Source: Rhodocyclaceae bacterium (GTDB taxonomy: Bacteria; Pseudomonadota; Gammaproteobacteria; Burkholderiales; CAIKXV01). Taken from it: a stretch of DNA of 64,000 nt. Below, in pieces: positions 45,018-57,313 of the stretch. The stretch is from the NCBI GenBank assembly GCA_020248265.1, contig JADCHX010000002.1, positions 62,001-126,000 on the forward strand, given 5' to 3'. The notes under the pieces are model-generated. The model ran no database searches. It saw only the letters and a list, made by a program, of their open reading frames with translations, and had not been told where the DNA came from. The translations under genes and the position numbers were made by a program. Positions within the stretch are counted from its first letter, which is position 1. Each line of letters opens with the position of its first letter.

Positions 45018-46022
45018 ATGCACGACAGACAGCCCCACACGCGACGTGTTCCCAACTCGCTCGCCACCCTGCTGATCGGCATCTGTTTCGCGCTTCTTCC
45101 CTGGGGTGCCTCGGCCACCGATGTGCGCTTCCCGAACCGGCCGGTACGCTTCATCGTCGGCAACACCGCTGGCAGCGGCGCAGACCTGGCAGCCCGCATC
45201 GTCGCGCGCGGCCTCACGGACGCATGGAAGGAGACGGTGATCGTCGACAACCGTGGCGGCGTCGGCGGGCTGCTCGCGGCCGAGATCGTCGCCAAGGCGG
45301 AGCCCGACGGCCAGACGCTGATGCTGGCCCAGGAGGGTGCCATCGTCATCGCCCCGGCCATCCAGCGCAACCTGAGCTTCGATCCGCAGAAGGCGCTGGC
45401 ACCGGTGGTCAATCTCGCCGATACCGATTACGTGCTGATCGCGTCGGCGAAGTCCGGCATCAAGACCCTCGACGACCTTCGTACACTGGCCCTGAAGCAG
45501 CCCGGGCAGCGCACCTTTGCCTCGGCCGGCGTAGGCACCGTTCACCACCTCGGCTTCGAGCAGCTGAACCAGTTGCTGGGCATCTCGATGGTGCACGTGC
45601 CGTTCAAGGGCGGACCGCCCGGCGCAGCCGAGGTCGCGGCCGGCAACGTCGACGTGATGTTCGTCTCGCCCGCCGCCGCCATGGGCTTCGCCACCAGCGG
45701 CCGCGTGTTCCCGGTGGCAACCGGCGGCGTCAAGCGCAATCCTCAGTTCCCGGCGGCGCCCGCGGTCGGCGAAACCTACAAGGGCTTCCGCGTGGTGAGC
45801 TGGTTCGCGCTGTATGCGCCGGCGAGCGCGCCACCACGCCTGCTCGAAAAGATCGCGCGCGATGCCACGGATGTCGTGCGCTCGCCCGACATCCGCAGCC
45901 AGCTCACCGCGCAGGGCATCAACCCGGTGGGCGGCACGCCCAAGCAGATGGCCGACCTGGTGCGCTCGGACGCGCGTACGTACGGGGAGACGATCAAGCG
46001 GCTGAAGATCACGGCGGACTGA
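45018..46022 (+). CDS. Bug-family solute-binding protein, atypical first ligand loop
   Basis: A 334-residue secreted protein with signal segment about 15-33 (ending ASA-T). The first loop is GNTAGSGAD rather than the usual PxPPGG, and the second is AEPDGQTL with Gln in place of Tyr. HVPFKGGPPG is retained. It is one of the more diverged members in the window, so a different ligand class is likely. No good ribosome site precedes the ATG. It stands alone between the peptidase gene and the tRNA. Confidence 0.84.
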   Translation: MHDRQPHTRRVPNSLATLLIGICFALLPWGASATDVRFPNRPVRFIVGNTAGSGADLAARIVARGLTDAWKETVIVDNRGGVGGLLAAEIVAKAEPDGQTLMLAQEGAIVIAPAIQRNLSFDPQKALAPVVNLADTDYVLIASAKSGIKTLDDLRTLALKQPGQRTFASAGVGTVHHLGFEQLNQLLGISMVHVPFKGGPPGAAEVAAGNVDVMFVSPAAAMGFATSGRVFPVATGGVKRNPQFPAAPAVGETYKGFRVVSWFALYAPASAPPRLLEKIARDATDVVRSPDIRSQLTAQGINPVGGTPKQMADLVRSDARTYGETIKRLKITAD

Positions 46023-49990: not shown

Positions 49991-50518
49991 TCAGGCCACC
50001 AGCTGCTTCACCAGCGCATCCACTTCCCGGAGCGTAGCTGCGCGCATCTCGTCCTCGGTCATGTTGCTGATCGGATGCGGCAGCTCGATGTACGGATGGC
50101 CGGCCATGCCCTTTGACCGGAACTGGAAGATGCAGGCATTGCGGAACGCCTGCGTGATGATCACGGTCGCGGGGATGCCTCGTTTCTCGAACTCCACGGT
50201 GTCGTGCACACTGCACAACGTGCAGGACCCTCACCCACCCACGGCAGCGACGGCCAGGTGGGCCTCCTGCGCGAGTTCGTCGATCAGCTGGTCGGTGGCC
50301 GGCTTCGAGTAATGCTCCTTGCGCCGGATGATCACCTTCGCCACGCCGTGGCGCTCACGCAGCACCTGCGCGACGGTCTCGAGGATCAGGCTGCCCTGCT
50401 CCTTGGTGTTGTCGATCATCGCGACCACCTTGCCGGCGAGGTCCATCGGCCGCGGTGCGAGGGCGACCGGCGGCCGGTTGCCACCGGCGGTCGGATCGAT
50501 GAAGGGCAGTTCGTTCAT
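49991..50518 (-). CDS. UGSC-family selenoprotein with in-frame TGA (Sec96)
   Basis: Read through a TGA at 50233-50231, the frame gives a 175-residue protein: MNELPFIDPTAGG..., a VVAMIDNTKEQGSL strand-loop, IIRRKEHYSKPA, then AVAAVGG-U-GSC-TLCSVHDTVEF. Translation continues to a TAA-free end at 49991. The U-G-S-C motif is the hallmark of the UGSC selenoprotein family, and both halves join in frame with family sequence on each side. A hairpin with SECIS geometry follows the TGA. GGAG lies 12 bases before the ATG. The role is unknown, presumably redox catalysis using Sec96 and Cys99. It ends the leftward eight-gene cluster, 28 bases after its neighbour. The stop at 49991-49993 is a TGA. Confidence 0.87.
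50198..50230 (-). promoter_or_regulatory. candidate bacterial SECIS element
   Basis: Directly 3' of the TGA, GTTGTGCA (50219-50212) pairs with TGCACGAC (50208-50201), eight pairs with one G-U, around the loop GTG. The loop starts 19 bases after the TGA and with a G, as the bacterial SECIS model requires (loop 16-37 bases after UGA, G in the first two loop positions). A shorter competing hairpin CTGCAC-GTT-GTGCAG also exists. Confidence 0.7.
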
Positions 50519-50546: not shown

Positions 50547-51581
50547 TCATTGGCCGTGGACGCCGTGAACGTCGTATGCGCCGTGCACCGCCCGGCTGCC
50601 GCCGCTCCAGCCATGGCAGATCGCGGTGCACGGTCCCCAGCCACCGGCGACGATCAATTGCAGGTCGACCGGATCCTTCAGCGTAGGGATGAAGCAGGCA
50701 TCGTCGTCGGGGTCGACCTTGATCGGGAACTGCAGCGCCCGCTCGCGGCGCCAGTTGCCGCCGCGCTTCAGGTCACCGACCGTGCGCCCGGCGCGCTCGA
50801 CCAGCCAACGGTGCACGTCTTCGCGGCTCATGCCGGCCTGCGCGCAGATCGTCGCATGCTGCGGGCCCATCGCTACCACCATGTCCGAGCGCGCATGCAT
50901 GTTCCACGAACCGAGCGCGGTCATGCCGTCGGCGATGCCGGTCAGCAGGCGCTCGGGCTCCTGACTCACGTCGTCGAAGTGCAGGCGCGGGCTCTCGACC
51001 ATCGCGCAGGTGATGACGTCCTGCGTGGCACCATAGCCCTTGGACACGGCCAGGCTGTCCCACGGGCTCCGTGCGGTGTTCTCGGTGATGCAGGCGGTGT
51101 AGCGCATCGGCGTGGCGAAGATGGTTGCCGAGGCGATGCCGGCCATGCCGCCGCCGAGGTTGAGCAGCATCAGGCGGATCGCACGCCCGATGGTCGCGTT
51201 GGCGCGAAAGCCCGGTCCGAAGCAGCCGTTGCTGCCGTTCAGGCCAATGGCCGCCGCATGCGGGCCGTTGACGATCATCAGGGGTGCCACGCCGTGCATC
51301 GTGCCCTGCACGCCGTTCAGGTTGAACGCGTCGCGCAGGATCAGCGGCAGTGCGCCAAGCACGACTGGTACGTATTCGGGACGGCAGCCAGCCATCAGCG
51401 CGTGGATGGCCGCGATGCGCACCGTCACCGGCTCCATCGCCGGCGGCACGCGCCCGATCAGCTCGTCCGGTTCGCGCCCGGCCGCGGCCAGGAACGGTGC
51501 CAGGCGTGCCTCGGTCGGCGTCACCACCGGCAGGCCGTCCGACCACGGCTTTTCGAGGAAGAATTCGAATTCGTCGATCAC
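50547..51581 (-). CDS. conserved protein of unrecognised family, paralogue B of the UGSC cluster
   Basis: A 344-residue protein without signal peptide or membrane segment. I do not recognise the family. It is clearly paralogous to its upstream neighbour over the full length: shared blocks include SDGLPVVTPT, GCRPEY, NGVQGTMHGVAPLMIVNGP, FRANATIGRAIRL and MVESPRL. Five cysteines are common to both. The C-terminus has GGWGPCTAICHGW, with two extra cysteines where the other copy has none. The start is probably GTG at 51581 (AAAGGA 4 bases upstream); GTG at 51599 is the alternative. It is followed at 28 bases by the UGSC gene. Confidence 0.75.
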   Translation of the reverse strand: MIDEFEFFLEKPWSDGLPVVTPTEARLAPFLAAAGREPDELIGRVPPAMEPVTVRIAAIHALMAGCRPEYVPVVLGALPLILRDAFNLNGVQGTMHGVAPLMIVNGPHAAAIGLNGSNGCFGPGFRANATIGRAIRLMLLNLGGGMAGIASATIFATPMRYTACITENTARSPWDSLAVSKGYGATQDVITCAMVESPRLHFDDVSQEPERLLTGIADGMTALGSWNMHARSDMVVAMGPQHATICAQAGMSREDVHRWLVERAGRTVGDLKRGGNWRRERALQFPIKVDPDDDACFIPTLKDPVDLQLIVAGGWGPCTAICHGWSGGSRAVHGAYDVHGVHGQ

Positions 51582-51612
51582 TGCATCCTTTCCCTGCACA
51601 TGTCCTTCGTCA

Positions 51613-52641
51613 TCAGTCGGTGCGGTAGGTGCCATGCACCGCACGGCTGCCGCCGCCCCAGCCATGCGCAACCGCGCTGACCGGCCCCCAGCCGCCGGCG
51701 ACCATCAGGTGCAGGTCGCGCGGGTCCTTGATCACCGGCACGAAGGCGGCATCGTCGGACGGGTCCACGCCGATCTTCCGAGCCCGTTCGTCACGCCAGT
51801 TGCCCCCCCGGCGCATCTGCGCCACCTGCATGCCGGCATTGGCCACCAGCCACTCGTGCACGCGCGCCCGCGGCCAGCCAGAACGCTCGCAGAGCGTCGC
51901 CTGCTCGGGGCCGATCACCACGACCATGTCCGAGCGCACATGCATGTTCCAGCTGCTCATCGCGGCCATGGTGTCGGCGATGCCGGTGAGCAGCCGTACC
52001 GGCTCCTGGCTCACGTCGTCGTAGCACAGGCGCGGACTCTCGACCATCGCGCAGGTGATCACGTCTTCGTCCGGCCGGTAGCCGCGCGAGACCGCCAGCG
52101 TCTCCCAAGGGCTGCGCTCGCTGTTTTCGGTCCAGCAGGCGGTGTAGCGCTGCGGCGTCGACAGCACGGTGGCCGAAGCCAGCCCGGGGATGCCGCCGCC
52201 CAGGTTGAGCAGGATCAGCCGGATTGCCCGGCCGATGGTGGCGTTGGCACGGAAACCCGGCCCGAGGCAGCCGTTGCCGCCGTGCAGGCCGATCTTCGCC
52301 GCATACGGGCCGTTGACGATCATCAGCGGTGCGACGCCGTGCATCGTGCCCTGCACGCCGTTCATGTTGAACGGCTCCTGCAGGATCAGCGACAGACCGC
52401 CCAGCACCACCGGCAGGTACTCGGGACGGCAGCCGGCCATCACCGCATGCAGCGCGACATCGCGCACGGTCGCGACATTCATCGCCGGCGGCACTGGCCC
52501 GACCACCTCGGCTGCATCGCGCCGCGTGCCGGCGAGCATCCAGTCGAGCCGTGCCTGCGTCGGCGTCACCACCGGCAGGCCGTCGCTCCACGGCTTGTCG
52601 AAGAAGAACTCGAAAGGATCGAGATCCGTCGCTGCGCTCAT
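51613..52641 (-). CDS. conserved protein of unrecognised family, paralogue A of the UGSC cluster
   Basis: A 342-residue soluble protein and paralogue of the next gene. Conserved cysteines occur in AGCRPEY, GGNGCLGPGF, RYTACWTEN, VITCAMVESP and ATLCER. The Gly-rich NLGGGIPGLASAT and the SWNMHVRSDMVVVIGP block suggest an enzyme-like fold with a substrate or metal site, but I see no known motif. Its ATG overlaps the stop of the Bug-protein gene (ATGA), so the binding protein and this protein are coupled. This copy ends GGWGPVSAVAHGW, lacking the two C-terminal cysteines of paralogue B. Confidence 0.77.
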   Translation of the reverse strand: MSAATDLDPFEFFFDKPWSDGLPVVTPTQARLDWMLAGTRRDAAEVVGPVPPAMNVATVRDVALHAVMAGCRPEYLPVVLGGLSLILQEPFNMNGVQGTMHGVAPLMIVNGPYAAKIGLHGGNGCLGPGFRANATIGRAIRLILLNLGGGIPGLASATVLSTPQRYTACWTENSERSPWETLAVSRGYRPDEDVITCAMVESPRLCYDDVSQEPVRLLTGIADTMAAMSSWNMHVRSDMVVVIGPEQATLCERSGWPRARVHEWLVANAGMQVAQMRRGGNWRDERARKIGVDPSDDAAFVPVIKDPRDLHLMVAGGWGPVSAVAHGWGGGSRAVHGTYRTD

Positions 52642-53654
52642 TGGGCGGTAAGTTTCGCCGCCTTCACCACCTTCGTGTAGCGGGCGATCTCGCCTTCGAT
52701 GAAGCGGCGGAAGTCTGCCGGGCTGTTCGACATCGGGTCGGCCCCGAGCTTGACCAGCGCGGCGGCGTTCTTCGGGTCGGCTACCGCGCGCGCGGTCTCT
52801 TTCGCCAGCCGGTCGATGATCTCGCGCGGTGTTCCGGCGGGCGCAAGCAGTCCGTACCACTGGGTGACCTGGAAATCGTTGATCTGCTCGGCGATCGCCG
52901 GCACGTCCTTGATCGTGCGCTTGAGGCCGGTGGTCGCGATGATGCGCATCTTTCCCTGCTGGGCGAACGGCACCACGGCCGGCCCGGTGCCGTAGAGCAT
53001 CGTCGCCTCGCCCGAGAGCACGGCGACCACGGCCGGACCGTTGCCCTTGTACGGCACGTGAAGCATGTTCACGCCCCCGAGCAGGTTCAGCAGCTCACCG
53101 GCGAGGTGCGGACCACCCAGTGCACCGCTGGAGGCGAAGCTGAGTTCGCCCGGGCGCTTCTTCGCGAGCGCGAGCAGGTCGCCGAGGTTCCTCACCGGCA
53201 GCGACGGATGCACGGTCAGGATGTAGTCGGAGGTCGCGATCAGGCTGATCGGCGCCAGGTCGCGCAGCGGGTCGTAGGGCAGCTTCGGGTTGGACGCCGG
53301 CAGGATCGCCATCGGTGCGACGTTGCCGAGCACGAGCGTGTAGCCATCGGCAGGCGACTTGCTGGCCACCTCGGTGCCGATCTGCCCGCTGGCACCCGGA
53401 CGGGTATCGACGACGAACGTCTGGCCGAGTTGCTCGGTCAGCGCATTGGTCGCGATGCGGCCCACCGCGTCGGTGCCACCGCCGGGCGGATACGGGAAGA
53501 TCACGCGCACCGGCTTGGCCGGCCAGGCCGGTGCCTGCGCGGCCGCGATCGCTGGCAGCCCCGCCGCGACGGTCAGTGCCGCCAGCATGAGAGCCCGCGT
53601 GGGTGTGGCGGGCAAGCGCGGCGCGTGCCGCGAGACAGTAACGAATCGGTCCAT
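52638..53654 (-). CDS. Bug-family solute-binding protein of the UGSC cluster
   Basis: A 338-residue secreted binding protein with signal peptide to about residue 39 (AIAAAQ). Landmarks are PYPPGGGTD, VDTRPGASG (Thr-Arg for the usual Asn-Arg), SPADGYTL and HVPYKGNG. GGAGGAG 3-4 bases before the ATG is strong. Its TGA overlaps the ATG of paralogue A, so the transported solute is probably the substrate of the paralogue/UGSC enzymes. The 115-base gap upstream contains a GCCGGC/GCCGGC hairpin without a T-run. Confidence 0.87.
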   Translation of the reverse strand: MDRFVTVSRHAPRLPATPTRALMLAALTVAAGLPAIAAAQAPAWPAKPVRVIFPYPPGGGTDAVGRIATNALTEQLGQTFVVDTRPGASGQIGTEVASKSPADGYTLVLGNVAPMAILPASNPKLPYDPLRDLAPISLIATSDYILTVHPSLPVRNLGDLLALAKKRPGELSFASSGALGGPHLAGELLNLLGGVNMLHVPYKGNGPAVVAVLSGEATMLYGTGPAVVPFAQQGKMRIIATTGLKRTIKDVPAIAEQINDFQVTQWYGLLAPAGTPREIIDRLAKETARAVADPKNAAALVKLGADPMSNSPADFRRFIEGEIARYTKVVKAAKLTAQ

Positions 53655-53769: not shown

Positions 53770-54441
53770 TCAGCCCTCGACATGGTTGGCCGGGTCGGCG
53801 GTGAAACGCTGGAACGCCGGCCGCTCTACCAGCCCGGCATACCAGCGCTCGATGTTCGGGAAGCGCGGGCGCTCGGCTTCCAGCAGCACCCAGCGATGGA
53901 CGCGGATGCCGATCGGGATGTCGCCGAAGGTGAAGCGGTCGCCGACCATGAAGCGGCTCTGCCCGAGCTGGGCCTCGATGATCTCCAGCCGCTTGTTGAA
54001 TGCGGCGCGCGCCTTCGCCAGATTGTCCGCGCTGCGCTGCTCCGGAGGCAGCCGCACCAGTTCCATCACGAGTTCGTGCTGCGGCGGCAGCAGTTCGTTG
54101 TTCTCGAAATCCTGCCAGCGGGTCGCCGACGCAAAGGTGCGCACGTCGTTGCCGTACATCGCCTCGGGCGCGTACTGCATCACCAGGTAGCGGCAGATCG
54201 CGTTCGACTCCCACAGCACGTAGCCGTCGTCGTCGATCGTCGGGATGCGTCCGTTGGGATTGAGCGCACGATACTGAGGCGTGTCGACCACGCCGAAGGG
54301 CGTATTGCCCTTCGCGACATGGCCGCCCGGCCCCATCACGCCGCTGGCCAGGATGAAATCGAAGTCGATTCCGATCTCGGCGAGCGTCCAGAGCACCTTC
54401 TGCGTGCGATTGGATGTCAGCCTGCCCCAGAGCTTCAGCAT
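53770..54441 (-). CDS. glutathione S-transferase family protein
   Basis: A 223-residue cytosolic GST. The N-terminal thioredoxin-fold domain (about 1-90) has LTSNRTQKVLWTLAE with Ser/Thr residues at the active-site position, the cis-Pro in NPNGRIPTI, and the glutathione gamma-glutamyl contact in LWESNAICRYL. The C-terminal helical domain ends with FGDIPIGIRVHRW and the RFPNIERWYAGLVERPAFQ block. The start at 54441 (AAGGAG upstream) overlaps the flavoprotein stop by 7 bases. In this cluster it may open or conjugate a sulfur or selenium compound with glutathione; that is inference. Confidence 0.92.
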   Translation of the reverse strand: MLKLWGRLTSNRTQKVLWTLAEIGIDFDFILASGVMGPGGHVAKGNTPFGVVDTPQYRALNPNGRIPTIDDDGYVLWESNAICRYLVMQYAPEAMYGNDVRTFASATRWQDFENNELLPPQHELVMELVRLPPEQRSADNLAKARAAFNKRLEIIEAQLGQSRFMVGDRFTFGDIPIGIRVHRWVLLEAERPRFPNIERWYAGLVERPAFQRFTADPANHVEG

Positions 54442-55352
54442 TGCAGCAACTCCTTCACGGACCGTGCAGCCAGCGCCGCATCGGCCACTGCATCGACCAG
54501 CCGCCCGCCGTATCCGGCACGCACGGCCCCGACCGCGTAGACGCCCGGCAGCGACGCGGCGAGCCGCGCATCGGTCTCGATCGCGCCATGCGCGTCGATG
54601 GCCAGCGCGGTCCATCCACTGTTGGGCACCAGGCCGACGCACGGGTATACCGCGCGCACCGGCAGCCGGGACGTTCCCGAGGGCCCGGCGACGGTCACCG
54701 CGTCAATGCCGTCGGTGCCTTCGATCGAGGCCAGCGTCGACTGCCAGTGGATGCGCAGCGCCTCGCCGCGCCCCGCGAAGGCCTGCTCGAATGCAGCGCG
54801 CACCGCCGGCCGCGCGCGGAACGCGCTGCCCCGATGGACGACATGTACCGTGCGCGCGTAGTGCGCCAGCACTGCGGCCTCCTGCAGCGCGCTGTCGCCA
54901 CCACCGACCACCACCACATCGGCGCCCTTGACCAGGGGCCCGTCACAGTCGGCACAGTGCGACAGGCCGCGGTCGACATAGTCCGCCTCGGCCGGGATGC
55001 CGAGTGGCCGCCGCGAGGCGCCGGTAGCGACCACCACGCAGCGCGCTTCATGCGTGCCCCCATCGGTGTGCAGCCGCAGGCCGCTGCCCGATGCCTCGAG
55101 TCCGGTCGCGCAACCGCCCAGGCTCTCGACGCCGGCGTCGGCTGCCTCGGTGATCCAGTTCGCGGCCAGGTCGCTGCCGGAGCAGGGTTCGCCTCCGCCG
55201 TCCGGCCAGTCGATCAGCTCGTTGATGCTCGTCACCAGACCGCCGAACATCATCTGCTCGACGGTACCGGTGCGCAGCCCGGCGCGCGCGCAGTCGCGCG
55301 CCGTCGCCAGCCCGGCGATGCCCTCGCCCACCACGATCACGTCGAAGCTCAT
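54435..55352 (-). CDS. thioredoxin-reductase-like flavoprotein
   Basis: A 305-residue two-dinucleotide-binding-domain flavoprotein. FAD loop VVGEGIAG (7-14), redox pair C133/C136 in HCADCDGPL, NADPH loop VVVVGGGDSAL (about 145-155), and the C-terminal FAD contact GVYAVGAVRAGYGGR. Length and order match thioredoxin reductase, but FMFGGL-type and GEPCSGSD stretches diverge from TrxB, so it may reduce a dedicated partner. The start at 55352 overlaps the aminotransferase stop (ATGA) and its own stop overlaps the GST start. Its place in the selenoprotein cluster makes it a candidate electron donor. Confidence 0.88.
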   Translation of the reverse strand: MSFDVIVVGEGIAGLATARDCARAGLRTGTVEQMMFGGLVTSINELIDWPDGGGEPCSGSDLAANWITEAADAGVESLGGCATGLEASGSGLRLHTDGGTHEARCVVVATGASRRPLGIPAEADYVDRGLSHCADCDGPLVKGADVVVVGGGDSALQEAAVLAHYARTVHVVHRGSAFRARPAVRAAFEQAFAGRGEALRIHWQSTLASIEGTDGIDAVTVAGPSGTSRLPVRAVYPCVGLVPNSGWTALAIDAHGAIETDARLAASLPGVYAVGAVRAGYGGRLVDAVADAALAARSVKELLQC

Positions 55353-56581
55353 CGTGCGCCCTTGCCCACCGTGCCGACCCACGCCCTGCAGAGCGACAGC
55401 ACTCGCTCGATGTCGGATGCGTCGTTGTAGACATGGATGGAGAAGCGCAGCGCGCCGCGCCGCACCGACAGCTTCACGCCATGGGCGCTCAGGTGCTCGT
55501 AGAGCGACTGCATGCGGCCGTCGTCGGCCACGTCGTGGCCATCGCCCATCGCACCGATCATCACGATCTGGCTGCGCTGCGCGCCGCGCGGCGCGCCGAT
55601 CAGCGGCAGGCCGAGCGCCTGCAGGCCTTCCGCCAGCTGCACGGCCAGCGCGGTATTGTGCGCCTCGATGTTCGCGATGCCGACGCGGTGGATCAGGTCC
55701 ATCGACGCATCGGCCGCGGCAGCGCCGATGAAGTTGTAGTTGCCCAGGTCGAAGCGCCGCGCGCCCGGCATCAGCTTGAAGTCGAAGTCGCCCAGCGCCG
55801 CCTCGCCCTTCTCGCCCAGGTCGACGCCGAAGCGCGCGAGAAACATCGGCGCGAGGCGCTCGGCCCAGCGCCGGCGCACGTACAGGAAGCCCATGCCGTA
55901 GAGCGCGAGCAGGCCCTTCTGCGTCGATACCGCGAGCGCATCGATGCCGAAGCGCTCGACATCGCTGTCGATCATGCCGGCCGACTGCGCGCCGTCGACC
56001 ATGAACAGCGCGTCGTGGCGGCGGCAGGCGTCCGACAGGGGCGCGAGGTCGGTACGGAAGCCGGGCGCGAAACTCACCGCGCACAGCGTGACCAGCCGGG
56101 TCTTCGCGTCCACCGCCGCGGCCATCTCCTCCACCGGGTACATGCCGCCGCTCATCGGGATCGCGCGCACCTCGACGCCGAACCGTCGCGCCAGGTTGAG
56201 CCAGACGTACACGTTGTTCGCGTGCTCCAGGTCGGCGCAGAGCACCACGTTCTCGCCCGGCTTCCAGTCGATCGCGGTGGCGACGATGTTGAGTCCCTCG
56301 GAGATGTTCTTGGTGTAGGCGATCTCGTCCGGGTGGGCGTTCACGAGCCGCGCGAAGCTGGCGCGGGTACGCTCGACCAGCGCGAACATCGCAGCCTTGT
56401 CGCCGCCGAGCATCCGCATGTCGAGGTGGCGCTCGATCGCCTCGCGCACCGGGGTGCCGATCAAGCAGCGGCCGGCCACGTCGAGGTAGGTCTGCGACAG
56501 CGCGCCGGGGTACATCGCGCGGACCTGGGCCGGTGTCAGTGGTGCCTGGCTGACGGCAGCCGGTGCCTTCATGTCATTCAT
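55349..56581 (-). CDS. class V aminotransferase (PLP) of the UGSC cluster
   Basis: A 410-residue fold-type I PLP enzyme. Schiff-base lysine K222 (VSTQKGLLAL), cofactor aspartate D196 (FMVDGAQSAG) and the stacking histidine H120 (ADLEHANNVYVW). The C-terminal loop reads SVRRGALRFSIHVYN, lacking the Cys of SufS/IscS. It belongs to the broad selenocysteine lyase/cysteine desulfurase/isopenicillin-epimerase group, but sequence alone does not fix the reaction. GGAG lies 6 bases before the ATG. It is related to, but not a recent copy of, the enzyme at 2569. Coupling to the flavoprotein gene (ATGA) suggests a joint pathway. Confidence 0.82.
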   Translation of the reverse strand: MNDMKAPAAVSQAPLTPAQVRAMYPGALSQTYLDVAGRCLIGTPVREAIERHLDMRMLGGDKAAMFALVERTRASFARLVNAHPDEIAYTKNISEGLNIVATAIDWKPGENVVLCADLEHANNVYVWLNLARRFGVEVRAIPMSGGMYPVEEMAAAVDAKTRLVTLCAVSFAPGFRTDLAPLSDACRRHDALFMVDGAQSAGMIDSDVERFGIDALAVSTQKGLLALYGMGFLYVRRRWAERLAPMFLARFGVDLGEKGEAALGDFDFKLMPGARRFDLGNYNFIGAAAADASMDLIHRVGIANIEAHNTALAVQLAEGLQALGLPLIGAPRGAQRSQIVMIGAMGDGHDVADDGRMQSLYEHLSAHGVKLSVRRGALRFSIHVYNDASDIERVLSLCRAWVGTVGKGAR

Positions 56582-56599: not shown

Positions 56600-57313
56600 T
56601 CAGCCGCCGCGCACGTAGCGGCGGCAGCGGGTGAACTGAAGGTCAGTGGCGGCAGGCTGGTCGAGCCAGGGCTGCACCACCGTGGCCTGCAAAGAACCGT
56701 CGAGCAGCAGGCGCTCATGGTCGAGATGATAGGTGACCACGTGCCGGTGCGTGCCGGCGGCTGCGATGAAGGTGCGCACGCAGCGCAATCCCGCGATCCC
56801 ATCGCGCCCGACACCTTGCGTCGGCGCGACGTCGGTCGCAACCCTGGCCGCAAGCGCGGCGGCGGTGGTGTCGACCCAGGCGGCCAGTTCGGCCTCGCGT
56901 TCGGCGCGCGGGTTCGCCGCAACCACCAGCAGCGCCTGCGCGTCCTGGGGAGCCAGTCCACAGCCCGGCCAGGCCTGCGCGGCCTCGGCGCGCAGGCGCT
57001 TGATACAGCGCCAGCCGACGCGCCGCGTCCAGGGCGAATTGTTCTCGTAGCCGACCGCCAGGTAGCCCGCACTGCGAAGCACCTCGGGCGCGGACAGGTC
57101 ATAGGTGGTCATCGACACCTTCGGATCGTCGATGCTGGACCAGCGCCGGATGTCGAGGAACCCGGGGATGCGCAGCCGTTCCGGGATGTGCTCGGTGTCG
57201 TACCAGTCGTGGAACTCGTCTTCCGCCACCGGCGAGAAGTCGAAGGACGAGATGAGGAGGCCGAAGGCAGCGCTGCCGGGGACGCTCGATCCGGGATCGC
57301 TCACGCGCGGCAT
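56600..57313 (-). CDS. EthD-like dimeric alpha-beta barrel protein
   Basis: A 237-residue soluble protein. The signature EDEFHDWYDTEHIPERLRIPGFL (about 32-54) is typical of EthD-type ferredoxin-like proteins, and a second half (FIAAAGTHRHVVTYHLDHERLL) suggests two barrel modules. Such proteins act as small decarboxylases, monooxygenase partners or unknown accessory proteins of catabolic clusters. It is probably the first gene of the leftward cluster, 18 bases before the aminotransferase. The start at 57313 is the ATG used here; no strong ribosome site is visible. Confidence 0.78.
   Translation of the reverse strand: MPRVSDPGSSVPGSAAFGLLISSFDFSPVAEDEFHDWYDTEHIPERLRIPGFLDIRRWSSIDDPKVSMTTYDLSAPEVLRSAGYLAVGYENNSPWTRRVGWRCIKRLRAEAAQAWPGCGLAPQDAQALLVVAANPRAEREAELAAWVDTTAAALAARVATDVAPTQGVGRDGIAGLRCVRTFIAAAGTHRHVVTYHLDHERLLLDGSLQATVVQPWLDQPAATDLQFTRCRRYVRGG

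Follow-up and report, generated by a model that had tools for sequence, protein, structure and literature searches.

Proteins of the UGSC family are among the commonest selenoproteins of aquatic metagenomes, and are still listed as uncharacterised in a 2026 review. They were suggested in 2008 to have a Trx-like fold and to act in redox chemistry, and one fusion of UGSC with a domain termed Unknown_1 was described in the same account (PMC2398784, Figure S1A). The closest systems of described chemistry are the glycine and D-proline reductases, with the Sec-containing proteins GrdB and PrdB (PF07355). In glycine reductase, NADPH electrons pass to thioredoxin reductase and then to thioredoxin; in proline reductase, the Sec of PrdB is proposed to attack a substrate carbon, and a Cys of PrdB resolves the selenoether (PMC3091704). 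A UxxCxxC motif is reported for GrdB (PMC13188914).

A UGSC gene is present in a 64,000-nucleotide stretch of a Rhodocyclaceae genome, termed here the window (contig C2, positions 62001-126000), the genome being 4.55 Mb in 33 contigs and 98% complete. It occupies one minus-strand frame from an ATG at 50518-50516 to a TGA at 49993-49991, and its sole internal TGA is at 50233-50231. Translation table 11 yields two ORFs, one that ends at 50231 and another that starts at a TTG at 50218; with the internal TGA read as Sec, the junction is VAAVGG-U-GSC-TLC-SVHD, i.e. the U or C followed by GSC that marks the family active site. The original prediction described 50518-50231 and 50218-49991 as one frame interrupted by a single TGA, with AAVGG-U-GSC-TLC at the join, and re-reading of the frame confirms this. 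The features of the locus are as follows.

49991..50518, minus strand: gene for a UGSC-family selenoprotein of 175 residues, Sec96 included (PF24696, NF041046; AF2 model, pLDDT 92.8)
50231..50233, minus strand: in-frame TGA, the Sec codon for residue 96; the column is also TGA in relatives
50201..50219, minus strand: SECIS-like hairpin, GUUGUGCA-GUG-UGCACGAC, 8 bp, with pairing conserved in relatives
50547..51635, minus strand: partner subunit A, 362 aa, outside all Pfam and NCBIfam families; 28 nt separate its stop from the start of UGSC
51613..52641, minus strand: partner subunit B, 342 aa, sharing 69% identity with A; its 3′ end runs into the start of the partner A gene
52638..53654, minus strand: TctC-type periplasmic carboxylate-binding protein (PF03401, E 7e-61); overlaps the start of partner B by 4 nt (ATGA)
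53770..54441, minus strand: glutathione S-transferase (GST)-like protein (PF13409/PF02798)
54435..55352, minus strand: thioredoxin-reductase-like flavoprotein with a CADC motif (PF07992, E 3e-32); shares 7 nt with the start of the GST-like gene
55349..56581, minus strand: class-V aminotransferase (PF00266, E 4e-47), which heads the overlapping run; shares 4 nt with the start of the reductase-like gene

Identification of the product as a UGSC selenoprotein, also part of the original prediction, is borne out by both curated models. The joined protein matches PF24696 over residues 7-174 (profile positions 3-171 of 172, E 2.1e-47, 161.9 bits against a cut-off of 25), and passes the cut-off of NF041046, the NCBIfam "UGSC family (seleno)protein", with 133 bits against 125. 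As had been anticipated, homologues carry U or C at residue 96; they align through the TGA position and do not stop there. Five other UGSC domains are found in the genome (on contigs C11, C10 and C4, and two on C2), and in each the homologous codon is the only in-frame TGA. In a sample of 369 genomes of the class, UGSC occurs in six, with 20 matches in all; 19 of these contain exactly one TGA, and the other, in genome G337, is a CGLC form. Among the UGSC domains at 80 loci of relatives, the TGA is present in 74, Cys replaces it in one and a contig end truncates another. The window copy agrees with the known family, which has both Sec and Cys forms, in its full-length match and its Sec motif; a distinguishing feature is its UxxCxxC (UGSCTLC). 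Variants with UGTS or UGSS (L138:265-1800, L140:4415-5950 and L128:2185-2643) keep Sec and have lost the resolving Cys. A fused UGSC-partner gene on a Vibrio europaeus plasmid (L149:6389-8074), which adjoins aconitase X and DUF126 genes, has Met-Gly-Thr-Ser at the Sec position, and its UGSC domain is apparently catalytically altered.

The hairpin spans bases 15-33, numbered from the U of the UGA, and has a GUG loop in the window copy. All eight pairs form in 56 of 73 distinct Sec-type sequences, and 89% of the paired cells in these 73 are complementary, versus at most 66% when the pairing partners are slid. Stems of at least 8 bp are found in 85% of Sec-type sequences versus 7% of codon-shuffled controls. 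More distant members of the family keep a hairpin with a loop of GGUC or GGUU. A hairpin with a conserved 8-bp stem and a GUG or GGUC loop is predicted shortly 3′ of the UGA, as for a SECIS. A change of Cys TGC to Trp TGG is accompanied by one of Val GTG to GTC, which retains the pair, although this covariation may represent only one or a few evolutionary events. It should be pointed out that the minimum free energy of the window hairpin, taken alone, is no better than that of shuffled sequences (z 0.18). The Cys-form genes, with 63% pairing, were considered as proof that the hairpin is specific to Sec; this holds in part, as some haloarchaeal Cys genes retain seven or eight of the eight pairs.

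The original prediction held that the host must have selAB and selC, and these genes are present. selA, selB and selC are clustered on contig C12 (31502-28078, minus strand) and selD is on C2 (222109-223050), all above curated cut-offs. The host selD contains one in-frame TGA, and SelD is itself probably a selenoprotein. In view of the family matches, the sel genes, the TGA column in the other copies and the conserved SECIS-like hairpin, the window gene is, as far as sequence can tell, a real selenoprotein gene of the UGSC family. The gene itself is not new, as the family has been known since 2008 and has curated models. Among 17 UGSC-bearing genomes tested for selA, 14 have it above the cut-off. 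None was found in the Cys-form genome G337, which is 75% complete, and two genomes with TGA-type UGSC, G135 (rated 97% complete) and G376 (2.1 Mb), have sub-threshold selA matches only. The mismatch in G135, where the UGSC gene is at C55:599-1075, could reflect contamination, the absence of a contig or divergence of selA. In another genome (G332, which has nine UGSC matches), selA is flanked by two UGSC genes inside 7 kb (C2:144797-151577).

A further finding is a partner family, which the original prediction omitted, as it did the thioredoxin-reductase-like gene. The partner has ~340 residues and is next to or fused with UGSC at all five UGSC loci of the host genome. In the class sample, the two families occur in the identical six of 369 genomes. 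Of 80 loci retrieved with the partner, 69 have UGSC, in 60 cases within 300 nt; the other 11 comprise six that stop at a contig end just past the partner and five that do not. An eighth partner copy in the host genome, on C4, has no UGSC inside the 1.5-kb flanks examined. The order partner-partner-UGSC is frequent in Betaproteobacteria, and UGSC-partner and other orders are found in Chloroflexi and Nitrospinota. A tandem locus ~12 kb outside the window (L029, C2:138107-142296) has a partner, UGSC and a UGSC-partner fusion, followed by thioredoxin-reductase-like and TctC genes. Since Unknown_1 was likewise fused to UGSC (PMC2398784), it is probably this same family. The present picture differs from the 2008 account, with its Trx-like fold and single fusion, in having a Rossmann-like model and a partner at every UGSC locus of the host.

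The partner has no match in Pfam or NCBIfam at 1e-3 and only chance matches at E up to 10, and a sequence search of the PDB gives nothing convincing. In an alignment of 146 rows, some of them redundant, D32, R150, N158 and E184 are invariant, with no Cys among the invariant positions. The partner model has a pLDDT of 87.6, and Foldseek returns only weak matches, to class I fumarases (TM ~0.25). Two possible relationships were considered. At the sequence level, the partner is not recognizable as GrdE, given an hhalign value of 0.4% against GrdE-like proteins and the lack of an invariant Cys for pyruvoyl formation; UGSC and the partner were also compared as possible paralogues, and this was rejected. 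A search of viral contigs found no relative.

The AF2 model of UGSC is a five-stranded alpha/beta domain in which Sec96 starts the helix after the third strand. The fold of this confident model is Rossmann-like, contrary to the Trx-like suggestion of 2008; its matches among solved structures are generic Rossmann-like folds, and a sequence search of the PDB gives chance matches only. An NCBIfam search shows weak matches of UGSC to the GrdF and GrdB models, and for this reason UGSC was compared by profile with Chloroflexi GrdB/PrdB domains. hhalign aligns UGSC with the GrdB/PrdB Sec domain at 95.5% (E 1.6e-8 over 54 columns, in a single comparison), with Sec on Sec. An example is VDAVILTAT-U-GTCTRCGATMAKEIERAGIPTALIS of a Chloroflexi GrdB/PrdB aligned with HLAVAAVGG-U-GSCTLCSVHDTVEFEKRGIPATVII of UGSC. 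This profile comparison identifies UGSC as a homologue of the GrdB/PrdB Sec domain; the two share the arrangement beta strand-U-x-x-C-x-x-C-helix-GIP, with the UxxCxxC motif, to which UGSCTLC conforms, and a linkage to the thioredoxin system.

There are also differences. The window protein has no match to PF07355 (GRDB), nor does any protein of the whole genome, matches among relatives being found in Chloroflexi; when the partner was compared with GrdE-like proteins no GrdE was detected, its profile being unrelated to theirs. In addition, UGSC is not confined to Chloroflexi but extends to groups such as Betaproteobacteria, haloarchaea and Actinomycetota. With no PF07355 match and a partner that is not GrdE-like, UGSC is not classifiable from its sequence as a GrdB/PrdB enzyme, but it may work like one. 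In the Chloroflexi loci read (L152-L171), PF07355 matches stop right before the Sec codon, which suggests that this model was built from truncated proteins.

The genes from the aminotransferase (at 56581) through the thioredoxin-reductase-like, GST, TctC, partner B, partner A and UGSC genes form a run on one strand in which most junctions overlap, and they are presumably co-transcribed. It is uncertain whether the aminotransferase is tied to UGSC function. A 237-aa ORF with no Pfam match lies just upstream of it on the same strand (56603-57313) and is a possible further member of the cluster. The thioredoxin-reductase-like protein matches TIGR01292 with E 3e-57 in the genome search, below the model's cut-off. 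Two of the four strong thioredoxin-reductase-like genes in the genome are beside UGSC loci (the window copy and one at C2:141409). Annotated plasmids show the orders partner-UGSC-trxB (Roseovarius) and trxB-trxA-partner-UGSC (Arthrobacter), and two Variovorax and one Neorhizobium have similar thioredoxin-reductase-like genes close to UGSC. Over all loci the frequency is 19 of 98. Other neighbours of UGSC are TctC or TRAP binding proteins, MmgE/PrpD, CoA-transferases and phosphosulfolactate synthase, and these suggest organic acids as the substrate class. The TctC neighbours are weak evidence, as such genes may be numerous in this bacterial group. Another ORF in the window (45018-46022) resembles a TctC-type binding protein, and suggests that the family is expanded in the host genome.

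The sequences show that this is a selenoprotein gene, that the host has the sel machinery, that UGSC and the partner are linked and that UGSC is homologous to GrdB/PrdB. UGSC may be the catalytic Sec subunit of a two-part reductase of small carboxylates that is fed by the thioredoxin system and has the partner as its substrate-binding part. We give this proposal an even chance of being correct. As for the electron route, the substrate class and the chemistry, we infer the following. SelB and the hairpin 15-33 nt from the UGA would put Sec at the TGA, and the Sec at the N-terminal end of a helix in the Rossmann-like domain would be the catalytic centre. The partner, through D32, R150, N158 and E184, would hold a small carboxylate-bearing substrate beside the Sec, and attack by the selenolate would lead to cleavage or reduction. 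An Se-S bond would then form with Cys99 (the Cys of UGSC) or Cys102, and would be reset by NADPH electrons delivered by the thioredoxin-reductase-like protein of the gene run, either directly or through thioredoxin. That the chemistry is the same is proposed on the basis of the homology to GrdB/PrdB, with the partner in place of their substrate-binding subunit.

Several findings count against the two-part reductase: the partner has neither detectable GrdE homology nor the Cys for a pyruvoyl group, thioredoxin-reductase-like genes are at just the 19 of 98 loci, some relatives have Ser for the second Cys (UGTS, UGSS) and the Vibrio fusion has Met for Sec, and G135 has a TGA-type UGSC with no selA above the cut-off. 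More tentative, and a little short of even in our estimate, is the wider idea that UGSC and the partner form a separate, pyruvoyl-free class of Sec-dependent reductases, kin to those of glycine and proline. Its substrates would be small organic acids, its hosts bacteria and archaea beyond the anaerobic amino-acid fermenters, and in the present genome it would have expanded to five loci. Taken together, the partner, the homology to GrdB/PrdB and the link to thioredoxin reductase offer a concrete complex and electron route that are open to experiment.

UGSC might instead be a peroxidase or a general thiol-disulfide oxidoreductase in defence or protein redox, with the partner as a redox client or regulator. 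A redox role was suggested, with the Trx-like fold, in 2008 (PMC2398784); thioredoxin-reductase-like and GST genes are close by, and the title of a reference cited in PMC3091704 speaks of a peroxidase activity of GrdB. We consider it unlikely, in that the five-stranded model is Rossmann-like and not Trx-like, some members do without the +3 Cys, the invariant charged residues of the partner fit a metabolic enzyme, and the neighbours include carboxylate transporters, MmgE/PrpD and CoA-transferases.

More doubtful still is that UGSC is no more than a redox or electron-transfer subunit, with the partner as the catalytic enzyme, e.g. a hydratase or lyase dependent on a helper thiol or selenol. The partner is the larger protein and is strongly conserved (R150, N158 and E184 are invariant), some loci have it without a nearby UGSC, and it has its weak Foldseek likeness to class I fumarase. 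However, a TM of ~0.25 and no invariant partner Cys for a cluster argue against such an enzyme, and Sec is kept in nearly all members from Sec-using genomes, suggesting a demanding chemical role.

A reading of the TGA as a genuine stop, an error of assembly or the mark of a pseudogene, with the second ORF a remnant, agrees with the two ORFs of table 11 but is already contradicted, and hardly credible: the codon is TGA in 19 of the 20 matches of the class sample and in 74 domains from relatives, the protein 3′ of it and the hairpin are conserved, and the sel set is complete.

The expectation that gene finders split such genes is seen to be correct in public annotations, and the hairpin and neighbour genes can aid in recognizing UGSC genes that were divided in this way. 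In Acidovorax sp. T1, the annotated CDS terminates exactly at the UGSC TGA. In Paracoccus ferrooxidans, one UGSC gene is annotated as two ‘hypothetical proteins’, with selB annotated ~4 kb away.
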